Below, piece by piece: positions 12,271 through 31,660 of a stretch of 38,845 nt of DNA. The position numbers were made by a program, and so were the translations under genes. Position 1 is the first letter of the stretch. Each line of letters begins with the position of its first letter. Below the pieces are notes generated by a model, which worked only from the letters and a program-made list of their open reading frames with translations, ran no database searches and had not been told where the DNA came from. The stretch is from Haloferacaceae archaeon (lineage in GTDB: Archaea; Halobacteriota; Halobacteria; Halobacteriales; Haloferacaceae), in NCBI GenBank assembly GCA_028274865.1, contig JAQCMY010000261.1:1-38845 (forward strand). The letters run 5' to 3'.

Positions 12271-12597
12271 GTGCAGTTCTGTGACTGCGGCTCGATGATG
12301 CGGGCCGAGGACGGCGTCATGGTCTGCCGGTCCTGCGGCGCACGCGCCGACCGGGACGAGGAGCGCGCCGCGGCGTTCGTCTCGACGGAGGAACAGACCG
12401 ACGACGACGTGATAGAGACAGCGGAAGGGGCGGGGTTCGAGGGCAAGCCGACCGCCGACGACGTCACCTGCGACGAGTGCGGTCACGGTGCGGCGTGGTA
12501 CACGATCAAGCAGACCGCCTCCGCGGACGAGCCGCCGACGCGGTTTTTCAAGTGCAAGAATGAAGCATGTGGCTCAGTATGGCGCGAGTACAACTAA
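12271..12597 (+). CDS. tfs: Transcription factor S (TFIIS/RpoM-like), with 3' end replaced by an integrated element
   Basis: GTG start; VQFCDCGSMM zinc ribbon, CDECGHGAAWYTIKQTASADEPPTRFFKC; end NEACGSVWREYN*. Confidence 0.93.
   Translation: MQFCDCGSMMRAEDGVMVCRSCGARADRDEERAAAFVSTEEQTDDDVIETAEGAGFEGKPTADDVTCDECGHGAAWYTIKQTASADEPPTRFFKCKNEACGSVWREYN
12549..12558 (+). repeat. Putative left attachment core (attL) caagtgcaag within tfs
   Basis: Matches caagcgcaag at 14769-14778 (9/10) at the equivalent codon position of the two tfs 3' ends. Confidence 0.65.
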
Positions 12598-12659
12598 TTT
12601 GGAGAGGATTTCATATTAAACAAACTACCCAAATATCAAATTTCGTTTATCAGAACGTC

Positions 12660-13205
12660 TTATTTATTACATAAACAAGCCATGCAACGGTGCTTGCGAC
12701 GGACGGGTGCGCGAGACGGTGACCGCGACCGATGGGCCAGCGGAGTCTGAAAGGTGACGCCACTGTCGCCCGCGTCTGCATTTGTGGTGTCACGCCCCGA
12801 CGTGGTCGTCGCTGAGGCATTTGCCCCCACAGACGAAGGGGAAACATTCCGATTGGTCGTCAAGCTCTGAGAGCCTTCCGTGGCTCCGGGCCGTTGTTCC
12901 TCTGTATCGACGTGAGCGTTCTTCATTCCCGCGGTCTGTTCCGGATCGGGAGGGTCCGACTCCGTGGGAACGTGACTGTCGTCAGTCGTGCCCCAGTCGT
13001 TGGTCCCCGCGGCCCCGGTGGGGGCGTCGTCTCTCACACGGATGCGTTTGTTTTCGTCGCGGTAGACGTACTCCGACAGGTCGTTCTGAAGCACGTCCGC
13101 GACAGCACTACCGGTGTGTAGCCCCCACCGCTCTTGGAGGTCGCTGTTCGTCGCTGGTTCACATTCCCGGACGTCCGCCAAGAGGTCGGCGGCGCTTCGG
13201 TCCAT
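12660..13205 (-). CDS. Predicted winged-helix DNA-binding protein with disordered S/T-rich tail
   Basis: MDRSAADLLADVRECEPATNSDLQERWGLHTGSAVADVLQNDLSEYVYRDENKRIRV resembles wHTH; low-complexity C-terminal half. Confidence 0.55.
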   Translation of the reverse strand: MDRSAADLLADVRECEPATNSDLQERWGLHTGSAVADVLQNDLSEYVYRDENKRIRVRDDAPTGAAGTNDWGTTDDSHVPTESDPPDPEQTAGMKNAHVDTEEQRPGATEGSQSLTTNRNVSPSSVGANASATTTSGRDTTNADAGDSGVTFQTPLAHRSRSPSRAPVRRKHRCMACLCNK

Positions 13206-13444
13206 ATGCTCGGTAATCACTAGTTCACCCTTACGGCTTGTGGAGTCTACGGGTGTAAGACACGCCCGAGCGGCTGCGAGGGCGCATTATGCGGGCGGGC
13301 TGGCGGTGGGACCGGGTAAGGAAGGGTTGAGATGTTACCGTTGGACGGGCGGCAGCCCGTGCGGGCTATGGGGGTTACTTGTCCAAGTCGGGGTGGAAGT
13401 GAATAAACCCGAGTCCGATGAGTGACCCGACCTACCAGAAGATA

Positions 13445-14713
13445 TCAGTCCATCCGGTCCTGGAGAAGAGCACGCACTTCAGGATCGTCAAGCAGATCGT
13501 TGAGTAGCTGCACCTTCTCAACTGTATCCATATCCCCAGCCTCGCGGTAGGACTCGCGCATCCGGTCGTCAACCTCATTTCCTCGGCCGGATCCGCCTTC
13601 CAAGTGCTCGCGGTGAGTGAGCGCCGATCCACAGGTCTTGCAGCGTTCGGTTCCGTCGGGGAGTCGGTCGCCACACTCGGGGCATTCGTTCAGCGTGGGA
13701 CGGCCGATCACTACGTTGGTACCCGTCTCAGGATAGCCAAGTTCGTTCCGAATAGCGTCGTTGTTCAGATTATCTGCAAGATTGACGTAGGTATCGAATT
13801 CAGAGGAGTCGCCGGCCCAACCGGCAATCTGTTTGATTTGCTGTTCGGAGAGACCCTCCGAAACCATCCGAGTGATAGCGCAATGCCGGAGGAGGTGTGG
13901 CCACACCCGCTTGTCGATCCCGGCCTTTTCGGCTCGCTTGACGAGAATCCGGCGGAACGTAGCAGGGTGCATCGGCTGCGCCGGTTCAACCGTCTCGCGA
14001 TTGAGCACGGCCTTGTCGGTGGCACAGAACAATGCAGATTCCGGATTGTCCTTGTATGGGTGGCTCTCGTACCACGGACGAACGTAGTGCTTTGCCCACA
14101 GCAAGGGCTTCGTCCCGCTGGCACCCTTCAGCGCACCCTCTTCCTCGTTCAATTCAATCTCCATCGTTGATCCGTTTGTCTTGATGTGCTTCAGCCGGAG
14201 TGTCCGGATGGCGTCAAGTCGCTGTCCCGTGGCCAAGGCTAACGCGATGAACGCACGGTCCCGGGCGTTCTCAAAACAGGCGTGCAGCAGGTCGTCGATC
14301 TCGTCCTGATACAGTAGGTCGGAGGGCGAGAGATCCCGACCTTCAGACCGCTCTATATCAATCGCTTCCGGGTCAATACCGAGGTGGTCGTGGTAGCGGT
14401 AGAACACCCGCAACGTGGCTTGATAGTTCCCGATGCCAATGCCCTCGTCTTTCACGTCCGGATGAGTCCCGCCCTTCATCGAATCCAGGGTCTCGTTGAG
14501 GTCGGCCAGTGTGGCGTCGGCCAGTGAAGTGGCAGACCGTTCTGCCATCTTGTTCAGGTAGAAGGCGTGATTGCCACACGTCGTTTCGGCCTTCTGTCCC
14601 TCAATGTACGTCAGATACTCATCGATGAGTTCAGCATCTCGTTCGGCCACGTCGCCGGCCTCTGTGGCTTCTTTGAGGCGATTCCGTTGTGTTTCGATCT
14701 TCGACTTCGCCAT
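13445..14713 (-). CDS. Tyrosine recombinase/integrase (XerC/D-like) with C-terminal zinc ribbon
   Basis: Catalytic pattern: TGQRLDAIR (R), HLLRHCAI (HxxR), AGWAGDSSEFDTYVN (W/Y); CPECGDRLPDGTERCKTCG ribbon. Confidence 0.93.
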   Translation of the reverse strand: MAKSKIETQRNRLKEATEAGDVAERDAELIDEYLTYIEGQKAETTCGNHAFYLNKMAERSATSLADATLADLNETLDSMKGGTHPDVKDEGIGIGNYQATLRVFYRYHDHLGIDPEAIDIERSEGRDLSPSDLLYQDEIDDLLHACFENARDRAFIALALATGQRLDAIRTLRLKHIKTNGSTMEIELNEEEGALKGASGTKPLLWAKHYVRPWYESHPYKDNPESALFCATDKAVLNRETVEPAQPMHPATFRRILVKRAEKAGIDKRVWPHLLRHCAITRMVSEGLSEQQIKQIAGWAGDSSEFDTYVNLADNLNNDAIRNELGYPETGTNVVIGRPTLNECPECGDRLPDGTERCKTCGSALTHREHLEGGSGRGNEVDDRMRESYREAGDMDTVEKVQLLNDLLDDPEVRALLQDRMD

Positions 14714-14768
14714 GAGATTGCCTTGCACGGCTCTGTTATTAAAATTACTGTATAGTTTCTACGTTATC

Positions 14769-14778
14769 CAAGCGCAAG
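14769..14778 (+). repeat. Putative right attachment core (attR) caagcgcaag
   Basis: 9/10 match to 12549-12558, directly preceding the displaced tfs 3' end. Confidence 0.65.
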
Positions 14779-14812
14779 GAGTGTGGCTCCCGCTGGAGAG
14801 AGTACAACTGAG
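14779..14812 (+). pseudogene. Displaced native 3' end of tfs (ECGSRWREYN*)
   Basis: gagtgtggctcccgctggagagagtacaactga = ECGSRWREYN*; joined to 12558 it gives RFFKCKECGSRWREYN*, a canonical TFS C-terminus. Confidence 0.85.
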
Positions 14813-24099: not shown

Positions 24100-25140
24100 T
24101 CAGCGCTCCGAGTCGGGGACGACCACGACCTTGCCGAACCCCTCGCGCCCCTCGATCAGCTCGTGGGCGCGGGCCGCCTCGCTCATCGGCAGCGTCTCGC
24201 GGACCCGCGGCTCGAAGGTGCCGTCCCAGACGAGCGAGAGCACGTCGTCCACCTCGCCGGGGGTGCCCATCGTCGAGCCGAGCACCTCGAGCTGGTTCCA
24301 GAAGATGCGGTTGATGTCCGTCTCCGGTCGACCGCCCGTGGTCGCGCCACAGGTGACCAGCCGCCCGCCCTTCGCGAGCGACCGCAGCGAGTCGGTCCAC
24401 GTCTCCGCGCCGACGTGGTCGACGACGACGTCGACGCCACGCTTGCCCGTCTCCGTCTGTATCCAGTCGGTCACCGACGCCGCGGTGTAGTCGAGGACGT
24501 GGTCGGCGCCGCAGTCCTCGGCGTGGGCCAGCTTCGCCTCCGAGGAGGCCGTCGCGTACACCTCGGCGCCGGCGTGGTCGGCGATCTGGACCGCCGCGTG
24601 GCCGACGCCGCCCGACGCGCCGAGGACGAGAATCGACTCGCCCTGCCGGAGTTGTGCGCGGGTGTGGAGCATCCGCCACGCCGTCTGGAAGACGAGCGCG
24701 GCCGACCCCGCGACCGACCACGGGACACCGTCTGGAACGGACACGAGGTTGTCTGCCGGCACCGCGGCCCGTTCGGCGTGGACGCCGGGAACGTGTTCGC
24801 CGATGATGTGAAACCGCACACAGCGCGTCTCGTCGCCCGCGCGGCAGAACTCGCAGGACCCACAGGCGACGCCCGCCGAGACGGCGACGCGGTCGCCGGG
24901 GGCGAACCGGTCGACGCGGGCGCCGGTCGACTCGACGACGCCCGCGGCGTCGGAGCCGGGGACGTGGGGCATCTCGAGGTCGATACCCGGCAGGCCGCGT
25001 CTGGTCCAGACGTCGAGGTGGTTGAGCGCACCCGACTTGACGTCTATCACCACCTCGTCGTCCGCCGGGTCCGGCTCCGGGAACTCGCCGTACTCGATCA
25101 CGTCGCGGTCGCCGTGGGCCGCGAACTGGACGGCTTTCAC
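24100..25140 (-). CDS. Zinc-binding alcohol dehydrogenase family protein
   Basis: VKAVQFAAHGDRDVIEYGEFPEP; VACGSCEFCRAGDETRC; VLGASGGVGHAAVQIADHAGAEVYATASSEAK. Confidence 0.93.
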   Translation of the reverse strand: MKAVQFAAHGDRDVIEYGEFPEPDPADDEVVIDVKSGALNHLDVWTRRGLPGIDLEMPHVPGSDAAGVVESTGARVDRFAPGDRVAVSAGVACGSCEFCRAGDETRCVRFHIIGEHVPGVHAERAAVPADNLVSVPDGVPWSVAGSAALVFQTAWRMLHTRAQLRQGESILVLGASGGVGHAAVQIADHAGAEVYATASSEAKLAHAEDCGADHVLDYTAASVTDWIQTETGKRGVDVVVDHVGAETWTDSLRSLAKGGRLVTCGATTGGRPETDINRIFWNQLEVLGSTMGTPGEVDDVLSLVWDGTFEPRVRETLPMSEAARAHELIEGREGFGKVVVVPDSER

Positions 25141-25221
25141 GACCGGGCTCTCTGGGGCCGGGGACAAAACCCTTCGTCCGGCGCCGTCGGCGCTAAGTGT
25201 CCGGCGGTCCGCGTACCGGGC

Positions 25222-25758
25222 GTGAGCGACCACGACGAGAGCGGCGAAGCAGACGGCCACAGCCACCACGGCCACGACGTCGAGTCACTCGGCGTCGCCG
25301 TCCTCACCGTCACCTCCACCCGCACGCTCGACGACGACCCCGCCGGCGACGCGATCGCCACGGCCGTCGAGGACGCCGGCCACGAGGTCGTCGTCCGTGA
25401 CGCCGTCGACGACGACGACGACGCGATCCGGTCGCGGGTCGACGGCCTCGTCGACGAGGTCGGAACGGTCGTCACGACCGGCGGGACGGGCGTGACGCCG
25501 GACGACGTGACAGTCGAGGCCGTCGGGGAGCTGTTCGACAAGCGCCTGCCCGGCTTCGGCGAACTGTTCCGCCGGCGGTCGTACGACGAGGTCGGGACGC
25601 GGGTCGTCGGGACGCGCGCGACGGCGGGCGTCGTCGACGGCGTCCCGGTGTTCTGTCTGCCGGGGAGCGCGAACGCGGCGCGGCTCGGGGCCGACCTCGT
25701 GGTCGCCGAGGCACCGCATCTCGCCGGGCTGGCGGGGCGAGGCGCGCAGACGGAGTAG
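25222..25758 (+). CDS. moaB: MoaB/Mog-family molybdenum cofactor biosynthesis protein
   Basis: VAVLTVTSTRTLDDDPAGDAI, VVTTGGTGVTPDDVTVEAV, FCLPGSANAARLG. Confidence 0.9.
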   Translation: MSDHDESGEADGHSHHGHDVESLGVAVLTVTSTRTLDDDPAGDAIATAVEDAGHEVVVRDAVDDDDDAIRSRVDGLVDEVGTVVTTGGTGVTPDDVTVEAVGELFDKRLPGFGELFRRRSYDEVGTRVVGTRATAGVVDGVPVFCLPGSANAARLGADLVVAEAPHLAGLAGRGAQTE

Positions 25759-25850
25759 CCGTGACAGAGCAGACGGAACTACCGGAGCGACCTGCGGAGA
25801 TGGGCTGGCGGCGCCACGCGAAGGGGGATCGCCGCGCCGCTGACGGCACG

Positions 25851-25857
25851 TTCTTAA
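25851..25857 (+). promoter_or_regulatory. Candidate archaeal TATA box for ilvD
   Basis: ttcttaa centred ~26 nt upstream of ATG 25880; fits leaderless transcript. Confidence 0.45.
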
Positions 25858-25879
25858 CTGCGGGCGGAGAGCTAGGCGT

Positions 25880-27637
25880 ATGAGCGAGCAGGCGCCACAG
25901 GAGCGTGCAGACCGGGACGAGGACGCCGCGTTCGCCGGCGACAAGCCGGAGGACCTGCCGAGCAGCGAGGTGACCGCCGGGGCAGAGCGCGCACCCCACC
26001 GCTCGATGTTCCGGGCGATGGGCTACGACGACGCCGACCTCTCCTCGCCGATGGTCGCGATCGCGAACCCGGCGGCGGAGATAACGCCGTGCAACGTCCA
26101 CCTCGACGACGTCGCCGACGCCGCCCACGAGGCGATCGACGAGTCGGCGGGGATGCCGATCGAGTTCGGGACGATCACCATCTCGGACGCAATCTCGATG
26201 GGGACCGAGGGGATGAAGGCCTCGCTGGTCTCCCGCGAGATGATCGCCGACTCGGTCGAACTCGTCGCGTTCGGCGAACGGGTCGACGGCCTCGTCGTCG
26301 TCGGCGGCTGTGACAAGAACATGCCGGGGATGATGATGGCCGCCATCCGGACGGACCTGCCGTCGGTGTTCCTCTACGGCGGGTCGATCATGCCCGGCGA
26401 ACACGGCGGGCGCGAGATAACGATCCAGAACGTCTTCGAGGGCGTCGGCGCCTTCGCACAGGGCGACATCTCGGGGCGCGAACTCGACGAGATAGAGCGC
26501 CACGCCTGCCCCGGCGCCGGCTCCTGCGGCGGGATGTTCACCGCGAACACGATGGCCTCCGTCTCGGAGGCGGTCGGCTTCGCGCCGCTCGGGAGCGCCA
26601 GCCCGCCCGCCGAGGACGACGCCCGCTACGACGTCGCGCGGGAGGCCGGCGACCTCGCCGTCGAGGCCGTCGAGGAGCGCCGCCGGCCGTCCGATTTCCT
26701 CTCGAAGGAGTCGTTCGAGAACGCGATCGCGCTCCAAGTCGCGGTCGGCGGGTCGACGAACGCCGTCCTCCACCTCCTCGCGATGGCCGCGGAGGCGGGA
26801 GTCGACCTCGGTATCGAGGACTTCAACCGGATCAGCCGCCGGACGCCGAAGATCGCCGACCTCCAGCCCGGCGGCGAGCGGGTGATGAACGACCTCCACG
26901 AGGTCGGCGGCGTCCCGGTCGTGCTGGGCGAACTCCACGAGGCCGGACTGCTCCACGGCGACGCCCTGACGGTGACGGGCCGGACGCTCGGCGAGGAGCT
27001 GGCGGCGGTCGACCCGCCGGCGGTTTCGGACCTCGACGTCGACTTTCTCTACCCCGTCGACGACCCGATCCACGACCGCGGCGCGATCCGGGTTCTGACC
27101 GGCAACCTCGCGCCCGACGGCGCGGTCATCAAGATCACCGGGAGCGACCACCTCCGCCACGAGGGGCCGGTCCGGGTGTTCGAGAGCGAGGAGCCCGCGA
27201 TGTCCTACGTCCAGGAGGGCGACGTCGAGTCCGGCGACGTGATCTGTATCCGGAACGAGGGTCCACAGGGCGGCCCGGGGATGCGCGAGATGCTCGGCGT
27301 CACCTCGGCGGTCGCGGGACAGGGCCACGCGGAGGACGTCGCGCTGTTCACCGACGGGCGGTTCTCCGGCGCGACCCGCGGGTTCTCGATCGGCCACGTC
27401 GCCCCGGAGGCGTTCGTCGGCGGCCCCATCGCCGCGCTCCGCGACGGCGACCTGGTGACGATCGACGTCGACGAGCTCGAGCTGTCGGTCGACCTGACCG
27501 ACGAGGAGATCGACGAGCGCCTGGCCGACTGGACCCCCGAGCCGAACTACGAGGGCGGCGTCCTCGCGAAGTACGGCGCCGCCTTCGGCTCGGCGGCGAA
27601 CGGCGCGGTGACGAACCCCGGTCTCACGCGGGACTGA
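25880..27637 (+). CDS. ilvD: Dihydroxy-acid dehydratase
   Basis: GCDKNMPGMMMA, CPGAGSCGGMFTANTM, VGGSTNAVLHLLA, EGPQGGPGMREML. Confidence 0.97.
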   Translation: MSEQAPQERADRDEDAAFAGDKPEDLPSSEVTAGAERAPHRSMFRAMGYDDADLSSPMVAIANPAAEITPCNVHLDDVADAAHEAIDESAGMPIEFGTITISDAISMGTEGMKASLVSREMIADSVELVAFGERVDGLVVVGGCDKNMPGMMMAAIRTDLPSVFLYGGSIMPGEHGGREITIQNVFEGVGAFAQGDISGRELDEIERHACPGAGSCGGMFTANTMASVSEAVGFAPLGSASPPAEDDARYDVAREAGDLAVEAVEERRRPSDFLSKESFENAIALQVAVGGSTNAVLHLLAMAAEAGVDLGIEDFNRISRRTPKIADLQPGGERVMNDLHEVGGVPVVLGELHEAGLLHGDALTVTGRTLGEELAAVDPPAVSDLDVDFLYPVDDPIHDRGAIRVLTGNLAPDGAVIKITGSDHLRHEGPVRVFESEEPAMSYVQEGDVESGDVICIRNEGPQGGPGMREMLGVTSAVAGQGHAEDVALFTDGRFSGATRGFSIGHVAPEAFVGGPIAALRDGDLVTIDVDELELSVDLTDEEIDERLADWTPEPNYEGGVLAKYGAAFGSAANGAVTNPGLTRD

Positions 27638-27645
27638 CCGGCTGA

Positions 27646-28323
27646 CTACGCGACCCAGCGGACCGTCGGTCCCGCCCCGTCCGGCGCCCGGCGGAAGGAG
27701 AGGTCGGTCGGGAACGCCGTCGCGAACACCAGACGTCCGTCGAGGCCGTCGAACGTTCCGACCCGGTCTTCGTCGCGGAGCGTTCCGCGAACCCGCTCCA
27801 TCGCCGTCCGGTCCGGGGCCGACGTCTCGTCGCGCAGGTCGACGAGCGTCCACGCGTCAGCCGAGACGGTCGCCGGGTCGTCGCCGCGGTTCCGGTACTC
27901 GACGTCGGCCTCGACCCACGTCTCGCCGTCCGGCGGTTCGAGCGGCGCGTCGTCGCGGTACTCGTCGCGCAGGTCCCGCGCCGGAATCTCGTCGGTCCGG
28001 TCGAACCTGGCGACCCGGGCCTCCAGGCGCGTGTCTGGCGACGGGACCGTCGTCCACTCGCCCAGGTCGGCCCGCACCTCCGAGGGGACCGGCGTCGCAG
28101 TCGGTGTCGGCGAGGAGGTCGGTGTCGGCGTCGACGACGGCGTGGGGGTCGGGGTGGGCGTCTCCGTCGGCGTCGCGGTCGCGTCTGACGTGTCGGTGCC
28201 GACGACCTGGACGTCTCCGGGCGTCGGCGTCGCCGTGTCCGGCGGCGTGGTGTCGTCGCCCGTCGACGAGCCACACCCGGCGAGGAGCGCAACGCCCGCG
28301 GCGAGAAAGGGCCGCCTGTTCAC
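27646..28323 (-). CDS. Haloarchaeal lipoprotein with T/P-rich linker
   Basis: NRRPFLAAGVALLAGCGS lipobox; TATPTETPTPTPTPSSTPTPTSSPTPTATPVP linker; GTG start. Confidence 0.82.
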   Translation of the reverse strand: MNRRPFLAAGVALLAGCGSSTGDDTTPPDTATPTPGDVQVVGTDTSDATATPTETPTPTPTPSSTPTPTSSPTPTATPVPSEVRADLGEWTTVPSPDTRLEARVARFDRTDEIPARDLRDEYRDDAPLEPPDGETWVEADVEYRNRGDDPATVSADAWTLVDLRDETSAPDRTAMERVRGTLRDEDRVGTFDGLDGRLVFATAFPTDLSFRRAPDGAGPTVRWVA

Positions 28324-28388
28324 GACACTACTTTTCGGCGCGTCAGCATACCTGTTGCGGACCGGGTGCGGCGACGCGTGCTGCTGTA

Positions 28389-28459
28389 TGGGACCGCCGT
28401 GATTCGAACACGGGTCCAACGCACCCCATGCGCAGAGGATACCACTACCCCACGGTCCC
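28389..28459 (-). tRNA. tRNA-Pro (GGG anticodon)
   Basis: Minus strand: GGGACCG acceptor pairs with CGGTCCC; T-arm CCGTG-TTCGAAT-CACGG; anticodon loop ATGGGGT; no encoded CCA, no intron. Confidence 0.92.
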
Positions 28460-28511
28460 TCTGGCGTCAACTTGCCCGTTCGGCTCTTAACGGCTTCGTC
28501 TTCGCCGCCGG

Positions 28512-29417
28512 TCAGACCAGCACCCGGTCGAGGTCGACGACCTCGCCCCGGTCCGCGCCGGGGTCGCCGACGAGCGTTCCGAGACAGACGGCGGCGCCGT
28601 CGGGCGTGTAGACGGCCACCTGGTCGCCCTGCTCCGGGTCGCCGTCGACGCCGAGGACGCCCGGCGCGTAGACGGGCGCGCCCTCGGCCACCTCGCGGGC
28701 GGCGGACGGCGCGACCGTGAGTGCTGGCAGGCCGTCGAGCAGCCGCTCGGCGGGCGCGACGGCCTCGCGGAGCGGTCCGGAGTCGCCCTCGCGGGCGAAC
28801 GCGAGCGCGTCGGCGAACTCGTGGAGGTTCACGAGGTCGGCGTCGTCGAACGGACCCGTGCCGGTCCGGCGGAGGTGCCCCATGTGTGCGCCGACCCCGA
28901 GCGCCAGGCCGAGGTCGTGACACAGCTTCCGGACGTAGGTGCCGGACTCACACGACAGCCGGAGCAGGGCGCGGCGCTCCTCGACCTCGAGGGCGTCGAG
29001 GGCGTACACCTCGCGGACGCGGAGACGGCGCGCGACGGCGCTCCGGCGTGGCGGCTTCTGGTAGAGCCGCCCCTCGAACGCCGCGAGGGTGGCGCCGAGG
29101 TCCGCCGGCGCCGGGCCGTGGAGTTCGAGGACCGCGACGTACTCCTTCGGTGCGGTCCGGAACCGCTCGACGAGGCGGGTGGCGTCGCCGAGCATCGTCG
29201 GGAGCGACCCCGTCACCTTCGGGTCGAGCGTGCCGGCGTGGGCGGCGTCGTCGACCCCTGGCCCGCCGTCGAGCGCCGTCAGCGCGTCGGAAACCATCTC
29301 GCGAACCCACGCGGCGACCTGGTGGGCGGAGGGGCCGGGGGGTTTGTCGAGGTTGACCACCCCGAACCGCAGGAGCGTGGCGGGCGGGCGCTCGTCCGGC
29401 GGGCCTCGTGCTCGCAC
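28512..29417 (-). CDS. cbf5: RNA-guided pseudouridine synthase Cbf5 / TruB family
   Basis: VVNLDKPPGPSAHQVAAWV, AHAGTLDPKVTGSLP, YQKPPRRSAV, SCESGTYVRKLCHDLG. Confidence 0.95.
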   Translation of the reverse strand: MRARGPPDERPPATLLRFGVVNLDKPPGPSAHQVAAWVREMVSDALTALDGGPGVDDAAHAGTLDPKVTGSLPTMLGDATRLVERFRTAPKEYVAVLELHGPAPADLGATLAAFEGRLYQKPPRRSAVARRLRVREVYALDALEVEERRALLRLSCESGTYVRKLCHDLGLALGVGAHMGHLRRTGTGPFDDADLVNLHEFADALAFAREGDSGPLREAVAPAERLLDGLPALTVAPSAAREVAEGAPVYAPGVLGVDGDPEQGDQVAVYTPDGAAVCLGTLVGDPGADRGEVVDLDRVLV

Positions 29418-29424
29418 GCTGACG

Positions 29425-30021
29425 CTACTCCGCGTCGGCGCGCTGGAACTCGTAGCGGACGCCCTCGACGGGCATCGCGCCCTCGTCACCCCCGTCGGTG
29501 TACGACTCGACGGCGGTGCGGACGACGGCCGTCGCCGCGTCTGGCCCCCACCGAGCCGTGTTGAGGACGAGGTCGTAGATCGAGAGGTCGTCGATGTCGA
29601 TGTCGTAGTAGGTCCGGTAGCGCCGGGCCTCGCTCTCGGCGCGGCGGCGGGTCTCCTCGCGGACGGCGGCGGCGGACTTCTCCTCCCGCCCGGCGATGCG
29701 CTCGACCCGGACGGCGAGCGGCGCGGTCAGCCACACCCGGATGTCGGCGGCGTCGCCGGCGAGCCAGCCGGCGAGCCGCGACTCGAGCACCAGGTCGTCG
29801 CGGCGCCGCGCGAGGTCGTACTGCCGCCGGTCGAGGTCGTAGTCGATCGCGGGCTCCGTCTCCGCGAGTTCGTTCAGCTCGACGGGCGAGAGGCCACGCT
29901 CGTCTGCCACGGCCCGGAAGATGTCGCCGCCGCTGACGTGTTCGGAGCCCAGCGCCTCGGCGAGCGCCGCCGCGAGCGTCGACTTCCCGCCGCCGGCGGG
30001 GCCCGAGACGGTTATCAACAT
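29425..30021 (-). CDS. cmk: Cytidylate kinase
   Basis: [41 protein letters not shown]. Confidence 0.95.
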
Positions 30022-30069
30022 ACCACCGGTCGGCGCCGCCCGGGCAAAGAAGTTGCTATCGACGCGGGG

Positions 30070-30984
30070 CTACGACGGACTCGGGCTGATGTCGATGTTC
30101 AGCCCCTTGCGGATGATCTGCGTGAACCCCATCGAGCAGACGAAGTACCAGAGGATCCACACCTGGACCGGCCCGAGCGCGGCGTCCCGCCACTCGAGCG
30201 GACCACGGAGCGGGATCGTGATCGCTCCCGGGTCGATATGCTGGGTCCCGCCGCCGATGCCGAGTGCCCAGTACATCCACAGGAAGACGGGAATGGTGAA
30301 GAACATGATCCAGACCATCGGGCGGAACTGCTCTTTGAACATCCCGAGCTGGTCGCCCATCATCTCCATCTGTTCGTCCTGGAGCCGGTCCAGCGCCTCC
30401 TGGTCGTCGCGCTCTTTGGCCTTCTCCCGGCGCTCCTGGAGGTCCTTCATCTGCGCCTGGTACTGCCCCATCTTCTCCGTGTTCATCAGGTTCGCCTGGA
30501 GCAGCGTCGAGTACAGCCCCGTGCCCATCGCAAGCACCATCACGACGGCGTAGAACGGGAGCGCCTGTTCGAGCGGGCCGAGCGCGACGTTCATTATCCC
30601 GCCGATGAGGTCGCGGAGCGGCTGCCACGCGTAGGCGACGAAGAAGGCTATCGTCACCCCGGCGACGCCCTTGTCGTACACCGACCACGTCGTCTCCTCG
30701 ACGTCGTCGCCGTCCTCGACGGCGTCGGCGCCGTCTCCCCCGGCATCGTCCTGTCCGACCGCGGCGCGGGTCGCCTCCGGGTCGGCGAGTTCGAACCCGT
30801 CGTCGCCGTCGACGAGCACGCCCTGCTCGATCAGTCGGCCCCAGTGTCCGCTGGAGACGTCGTCGCGGACGTCCGCCCAGCGCACCGTGCCGTCCTCGGC
30901 GCGAGAGAGCACCGTCTCGACGGCGTCGCGCATCTCGGTGTCGTCCCCGACGAGGTCGCGAACTGTCCGTTCGGTCCGAGCCAT
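30070..30984 (-). CDS. DUF106 family membrane protein (archaeal Oxa1/YidC superfamily, EMC3/TMCO1-like)
   Basis: TM helices with cytosolic coiled coil (QYQAQMKDLQERREKAKERDDQEALDRLQDEQMEMMGDQLGMFKEQFRPMVWIMFFTIPVFLWMYW). Confidence 0.92.
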   Translation of the reverse strand: MARTERTVRDLVGDDTEMRDAVETVLSRAEDGTVRWADVRDDVSSGHWGRLIEQGVLVDGDDGFELADPEATRAAVGQDDAGGDGADAVEDGDDVEETTWSVYDKGVAGVTIAFFVAYAWQPLRDLIGGIMNVALGPLEQALPFYAVVMVLAMGTGLYSTLLQANLMNTEKMGQYQAQMKDLQERREKAKERDDQEALDRLQDEQMEMMGDQLGMFKEQFRPMVWIMFFTIPVFLWMYWALGIGGGTQHIDPGAITIPLRGPLEWRDAALGPVQVWILWYFVCSMGFTQIIRKGLNIDISPSPS

Positions 30985-31033
30985 CGAGACGGCGTAGGAT
31001 ATCGTAGAATAAGAAGGGTCCGCTCTCGGCGTT

Positions 31034-31660
31034 CTACGACTCGACCGTCTCGCGCAGCGCCGCGAACACCTCGTCGGGCGTGCCGTCGCCGTCCACCTCG
31101 ACCAGCGTGCCGGTCTCGCGGTAGTGGTCGACGACCGGCGCGGTGTTCTCCTCGTACACCCGGAGGCGCTCGCGCACGGTGTCCTCGGTGTCGTCGTCCC
31201 GCTGGGTCAACTCGGCGCCGCAGTCGTCGCAGCTGCCGGCCTCCGCGGGCGGTGCGAACTCGACGTGGTAGGTCGCGTCACACTCCGGGCAGATCCGTCG
31301 TCCCGTCAGCCGGCGGACGAGTTCGTCCTCGGGCACCGAGAGAAAGGCGACGGTGTCGAGGTCGACCATGTCGGCGAGGAACTCCGTCTGGTCGAGGTTC
31401 CGGGGGTAGCCGTCGAGTACGAACCCGTCGGCGTCGGCGAGCGCCTCGACGACGATCTCGTTCACCACGGGGTCGGGGACGAGTTCGCCCGCCTCCATGT
31501 ACTCGCGCGGCGTCCCGTGGTCGGTCTCCACGTCCCTGTTCGCGCGGAGCGCGTCGCCCGTCGTGACGTGGTCGACGTCGTACTCCTCGGCGAGTCGCGT
31601 GCTCTGCGTGCCCTTTCCCGCGCCGGGGGGACCGAGCAGGAGGATCTGTGGCTGGTTCAC
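31034..31660 (-). CDS. adk: Adenylate kinase with zinc-binding lid
   Basis: [46 protein letters not shown]...[11 protein letters not shown] start. Confidence 0.97.

Follow-up and report, generated by a model that had tools for sequence, protein, structure and literature searches.

An integrated element replaces the 3' end of a haloarchaeal tfs gene whose product carries an altered zinc knuckle

Results

We analyzed a window of 38,845 nucleotides, on one contig of a Haloferacaceae archaeon, around a gene for the archaeal transcript-cleavage factor TFS and the insert that follows it (Table 1). The gene product scored 71.3 bits as a whole protein against the TIGR01384 profile, whose curated cut-off is 64.75, and 50.5 bits against PF01096 (Zn_ribbon_TFIIS); on TIGR01384, the TFS of another genome of the same genus (G001) scored 76.5 bits. 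The insert has a GC content of 0.58, compared to 0.71 for its flanks, and its cargo consists only of an integrase gene and the DUF5797 open reading frame. The integrase could start at 14728 (GTG) or 14713 (ATG). Its catalytic motifs GQR, HLLR, GW, and TY are all readable, and together with the family assignment they indicate an intact-looking enzyme, from which we infer that it is active.

Table 1. Features of the tfs gene and the inserted element (window coordinates).
Feature	Coordinates	Strand	Remarks
tfs, archaeal transcript-cleavage factor TFS, 108 aa, GTG start	12271..12597	+	TIGR01384, PF01096; element-supplied codons from 12559
Left attachment core CAAGTGCAAG, inside the tfs codons for Lys-Cys-Lys	12549..12558	+	matches 14769-14778
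Element-supplied tfs tail NEACGSVWREYN-stop, gives Cx4C	12559..12597	+	missing from empty site
Small element ORF, DUF5797 (unknown function)	12660..13220	-	PF19110, 58.9 bits
Tyrosine recombinase (integrase), C-terminal zinc ribbon	13445..14728	-	PF00589, 80.8 bits; phrog_1 integrase
Right attachment core CAAGCGCAAG	14769..14778	+	one mismatch to left core
Displaced native tfs end KECGSRWREYN-stop, CxxC in context	14779..14811	+	agrees with G001 empty site

The present gene ends in RFFKCKNEACGSVWREYN and a stop codon, with four residues between the cysteine codons at 12553-12555 and 12568-12570, and the last residues of its product are KCKNEACGSVWREYN. This TFS therefore deviates in its second knuckle, which is Cx4C, from the ribbon spacing CxxC...CxxC, a spacing that is usual but not strictly defining, as human RPC10 differs from it too. 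Approximately 2.2 kb downstream of tfs, positions 14769-14811 read CAAGCGCAAG-GAG-TGT-GGC-TCC-CGC-TGG-AGA-GAG-TAC-AAC-TGA, that is, a second tfs end. The two direct-repeat cores, CAAGTGCAAG and CAAGCGCAAG, are identical at 9 of 10 positions and share CAAG[T/C]GCAAG, with T or C at the one variable site. This tail repeat was recovered by a direct-repeat search over 2.5 kb, while a sequence-only search over 17 kb yielded too many GC-rich repeats to be informative. Compared to the displaced end, the supplied tail has NEA in place of E and also a valine instead of the arginine before the tryptophan, so that the two-codon in-frame gain proposed in the first-pass annotation is real but is not the whole of the change. 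The tail retains all four cysteines of the ribbon, the tryptophan, REYN, and the exact frame, and its GC3 is 0.50, compared to 0.91 for the body of the gene.

The same-genus genome G001 carries the corresponding empty site (locus L011). There tfs ends in RFFKCKQCGSRWREYN and has no insert; both flanks are 90-91% identical to those in the window, and the end of the gene runs straight into the sequence that in the window lies 3' of the displaced tail. Since the insert is absent from this site, the CxxC end is the native one, and the Cx4C end came with the insertion or after it. The comparison bears out two earlier proposals: the element supplies the C-terminus of TFS, as the tail from 12559 onward has no counterpart in the empty site, and the spacing shifted from CxxC to Cx4C, as the displaced copy and the empty site both have CxxC. 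We also considered that Cx4C might be native to this lineage or an artefact of assembly, the assembly being fragmented (291 contigs). We give this next to no credence: CxxC is found both in the same-genus empty site and in the displaced copy, both junctions lie within one contig, and a coherent in-frame gain of two codons accompanied by further changes is not what an assembly error produces.

Next, we asked how rare the Cx4C spacing is. Within the order, 367 of 400 genomes matched a C-terminal tfs ribbon pattern that allows any spacing, 366 of them with CxxC, as in all of the matches listed for that pattern, and the ribbon pattern without CxxC matched only the window. A fixed Cx4C pattern run against 85,462 species found no other Cx4C TFS. 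The uniqueness of the spacing is beyond chance, and both the order-wide search and the larger one speak against the possibility, raised in the first-pass annotation, that it is common in genomes that carry no element. The sole match to the fixed pattern among the 85,462 species, in Evansella clarkii (L016), lies in a bacterial open stretch of 57 codons and was rejected as a chance match.

Further tfs 3' ends in haloarchaea appear to have been hit repeatedly, with tail duplications in two or three additional genomes. In G363 (L063, 1369-3315) and G294 (L064), two copies of the bare tail CG...WREYN-stop lie within 2 kb of sequence: an intact CxxC tfs is followed by an AT-richer insert of 1.6-1.9 kb and then by the second tail. 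No recognizable integrase was found in these two inserts, and insertion is a putative cause of the duplications. Both keep CxxC, which argues against a general association of Cx4C with insertions into tfs. In G193 (L066, 3467-4179; L065), a host-type tfs ends in KCQERNSVAYS-stop after the third ribbon cysteine and adjoins a second, complete tfs of diverged sequence, presumably brought by an element; the same contig has a displaced-looking tail at a distance of approximately 1.2 Mb. The literature searched, the coverage of which was partial, contained no description of integration at tfs.

The two closest relatives of the integrase, with 51% and 49% identity, both lie in protein genes. In G026 (L049/L050, G026:C10 ~24192-31500), the element is in uvrB: a displaced native N-terminal piece of UvrB (112 aa, 24192-24527) adjoins the integrase, other open reading frames follow, and a uvrB restored to full length begins at ~29405. 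Approximately 109 codons of its element-side 5' part are recoded, encoding a protein stretch that is 81% identical and is joined at TCCTACTACGA. The cargo of this element includes a 705-aa open reading frame that by eye resembles DUF262. In G255 (L051/L052, G255:C33 ~324570-326740), a selenium-binding-protein gene is interrupted by a 2.2-kb element that separates its N- and C-terminal parts, and the gene is left broken, with no sign of repair. Exact 13-mer att repeats were not found in either genome, and both cases were settled by protein matches. These close relatives of the integrase thus enter protein genes, sometimes with one end repaired.

In another view of the tfs tail, it has diverged from attB at the DNA level as a barrier to re-integration, with the protein change as a by-product. 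The supplied and displaced tails do differ at many positions adjacent to the core while encoding nearly identical peptides, and there is similar divergence in G363, in G294, and in the recoded uvrB 5' end of G026. However, drift or a foreign donor would yield the same pattern, and a barrier would be compatible with site-specific integration that leaves a tolerated scar rather than exclusive of it. As a separate explanation we consider it unlikely.

We also looked for the element outside chromosomes. No circular or viral form bearing this attP turned up free in the viral, phage, and plasmid collections searched. Among viral contigs there was no Cx4C tail and no confirmed relative of the integrase; the bare tail had two matches there, both in unrelated AT-rich phage-like sequence, and these were set aside. 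Plasmids and phages gave only distant integrase matches, with identity of at most 31.4%, and no TFS was found in phages.

To assess what the new end means for the protein, we located the crossover relative to its functional parts. The Asp-Glu hairpin of TFS, SADEP, drives cleavage. It comprises residues 84-88 and is common to the other TFS proteins in our alignment (A1). The crossover follows FFKCK, 3' of this hairpin, which thus remains host-encoded, and the changed knuckle sits at the end of the ribbon opposite the functional tip. The best PDB match to TFS is human Pol III RPC10 (chains 7fji_I and 7a6h_I), which aligns without gaps over KCKNEACGSVWRE / KCCNAQCGHRWRD and has in common with the supplied tail the knuckle C-x-N-x-x-C-G (CCNAQCG in RPC10). 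In this subunit family (RPC10/C11), the C-terminal domain activates RNA 3' cleavage, as tested on yeast C11 (PMC8501072). The window genome's own TFS-like paralogue already has Cx4C (CPNPDC) at the other, first knuckle of this ribbon, where the gap in yeast RPC10 is longer still (CPNYDTC), and this speaks for a tolerated difference. AlphaFold2 predicts the same strands for TFS from the window and from G001, E75-80 and E90-95, followed by E103-107 in the one and E101-105 in the other, and the window model matches the ribbons 1qyp and 1tfi at 2.6 and 2.3 Å. The models are zinc-free and of modest confidence (mean pLDDT 68, pTM 0.40), and from them nothing speaks against folding, but no more can be said. 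Because the four cysteines and the Asp-Glu hairpin are intact, TFS has most likely kept its ability to bind zinc and to stimulate transcript cleavage.

A partial loss of function was considered as well, with TFS being non-essential or covered by a TFS-like paralogue. The window genome indeed has a second, TFS-like paralogue, as the first-pass annotation had proposed to check (L002:1489-1812, minus strand; 51.8 bits, under the TFS cut-off); G000, G001, and G002 each have a paralogue in which the second knuckle is CxxC and Asp-Glu is found, and G193 harbors its host-type tfs with a broken ribbon beside another complete tfs. But the retention of all four cysteines, the tryptophan, REYN, and the exact frame, together with a family score still over the cut-off, makes such a scar distinctly unlikely. 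The TFS-like paralogues at L069 and L071, like that at L002, have Asp-Glu and read CPNPDC or CPEPDC (Cx4C) at the first knuckle.

Discussion

Altogether, we favor site-specific integration in which a tail carried by the element's attP regenerates the target reading frame imperfectly but tolerably, with Cx4C as a tolerated scar, and we assign this reading a probability of about 0.8. On this reading, a 2.2-kb integrative element (12559-14778) with a tyrosine recombinase entered tfs at codons 94-96, where a 10-bp core served for site-specific recombination. Its attP would carry a tfs-derived tail, the in-frame fusion of which to the host gene regenerated the open reading frame and displaced the native 33-nt end downstream. 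The resulting spacing would be inherited from attP and would have no role as a regulator. Judging from CGSxWREYN, the tail probably derives from a tfs gene, and the common CGS suggests one of the same genus. The two extra codons were either brought by the element or arose after insertion; they would be the element's own if attP holds AATGAAGCATGTGGCTCAGTATGG.

Regeneration of an open reading frame by an attP-encoded tail has already been described for NitEve-E2, an element of Nitrososphaera evergladensis integrated at the 3' end of a gene for a zinc-finger protein (PMC6563490), and it is the best-supported mechanism for tfs. In both cases, an archaeal element occupies the distal 3' portion of a protein gene, an empty site is available for comparison, the reading frame is rebuilt from an end that derives from the element and brings a new stop codon, and the att sequences are short (13 bp in NitEve-E2, 10 bp here). 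However, in NitEve-E2 8 nt including the stop codon are replaced by non-homologous sequence, while in tfs a homologous tail takes the place of ~39 nt of a conserved zinc-ribbon end, with a change in the spacing of a metal knuckle; the host phylum (Thaumarchaeota) and the target gene differ as well. Protein genes are known targets of archaeal integrases, although less usual ones than tRNA genes (PMC8371274).

The first-pass annotation had suggested that the element may supply a variant tip of TFS and thereby alter the behavior of host RNA polymerase, and had offered a tolerated scar as the alternative. Our data favor the latter. An adaptive change that alters the host polymerase for the element's benefit, through weaker cleavage, altered binding, or inhibition, would fit the uniqueness of the spacing among the 400 genomes of the order and the additional change of arginine to valine before the tryptophan. 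Small changes in the C-terminal ribbon can also make TFS an inhibitor of RNA polymerase, as in Sulfolobus TFS4 (PMC5715097), a TFS-family protein that likewise has an altered C-terminal ribbon. In TFS4, however, the switch is at the tip of the hairpin, where Asp-Glu is lost and three lysines are gained (DE to KKK), whereas in the window TFS the SADEP hairpin is encoded upstream of the crossover and unchanged, and only the distal cysteine knuckle is altered. Human RPC10 has the same knuckle spacing in a TFIIS-type ribbon with the same SADEP hairpin, the other tfs-tail duplications keep CxxC, and the insert carries nothing besides the integrase and the DUF5797 frame. We therefore regard such an adaptation as very unlikely. 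The likeness to RPC10 also has its limit, since the RPC10 knuckle is a native, fixed part of a stably bound subunit, while in TFS it is derived from a mobile element and sits in a reversibly bound archaeal factor.

The locus is a clean natural experiment on how much change a conserved transcription factor can accommodate: the last 12 residues of TFS have been rewritten by a mobile element, altering a zinc-knuckle spacing that is invariant in the other haloarchaea sampled. It also suggests that integration into tfs recurs in haloarchaea, and that there is an integrase lineage with protein genes as its targets that is able to supply a new 3' end (tfs) or 5' end (uvrB). It is very unlikely that the attP tail installs a functionally different TFS, for instance in polymerase affinity or cleavage, such that integration reprograms host transcription, and that this lineage swaps the ends of host genes (tfs, uvrB) with functional effect. 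If the variant TFS does work differently, it would represent a new way for mobile DNA to edit the RNA polymerase factors of its host.

Apart from the element, the N-terminal ribbon of TFS (window 12271-12300) has CDCG (C-x-C) in place of the usual CxxCG in both G000 and G001, a one-residue loss that is common to the genus and independent of the insertion.
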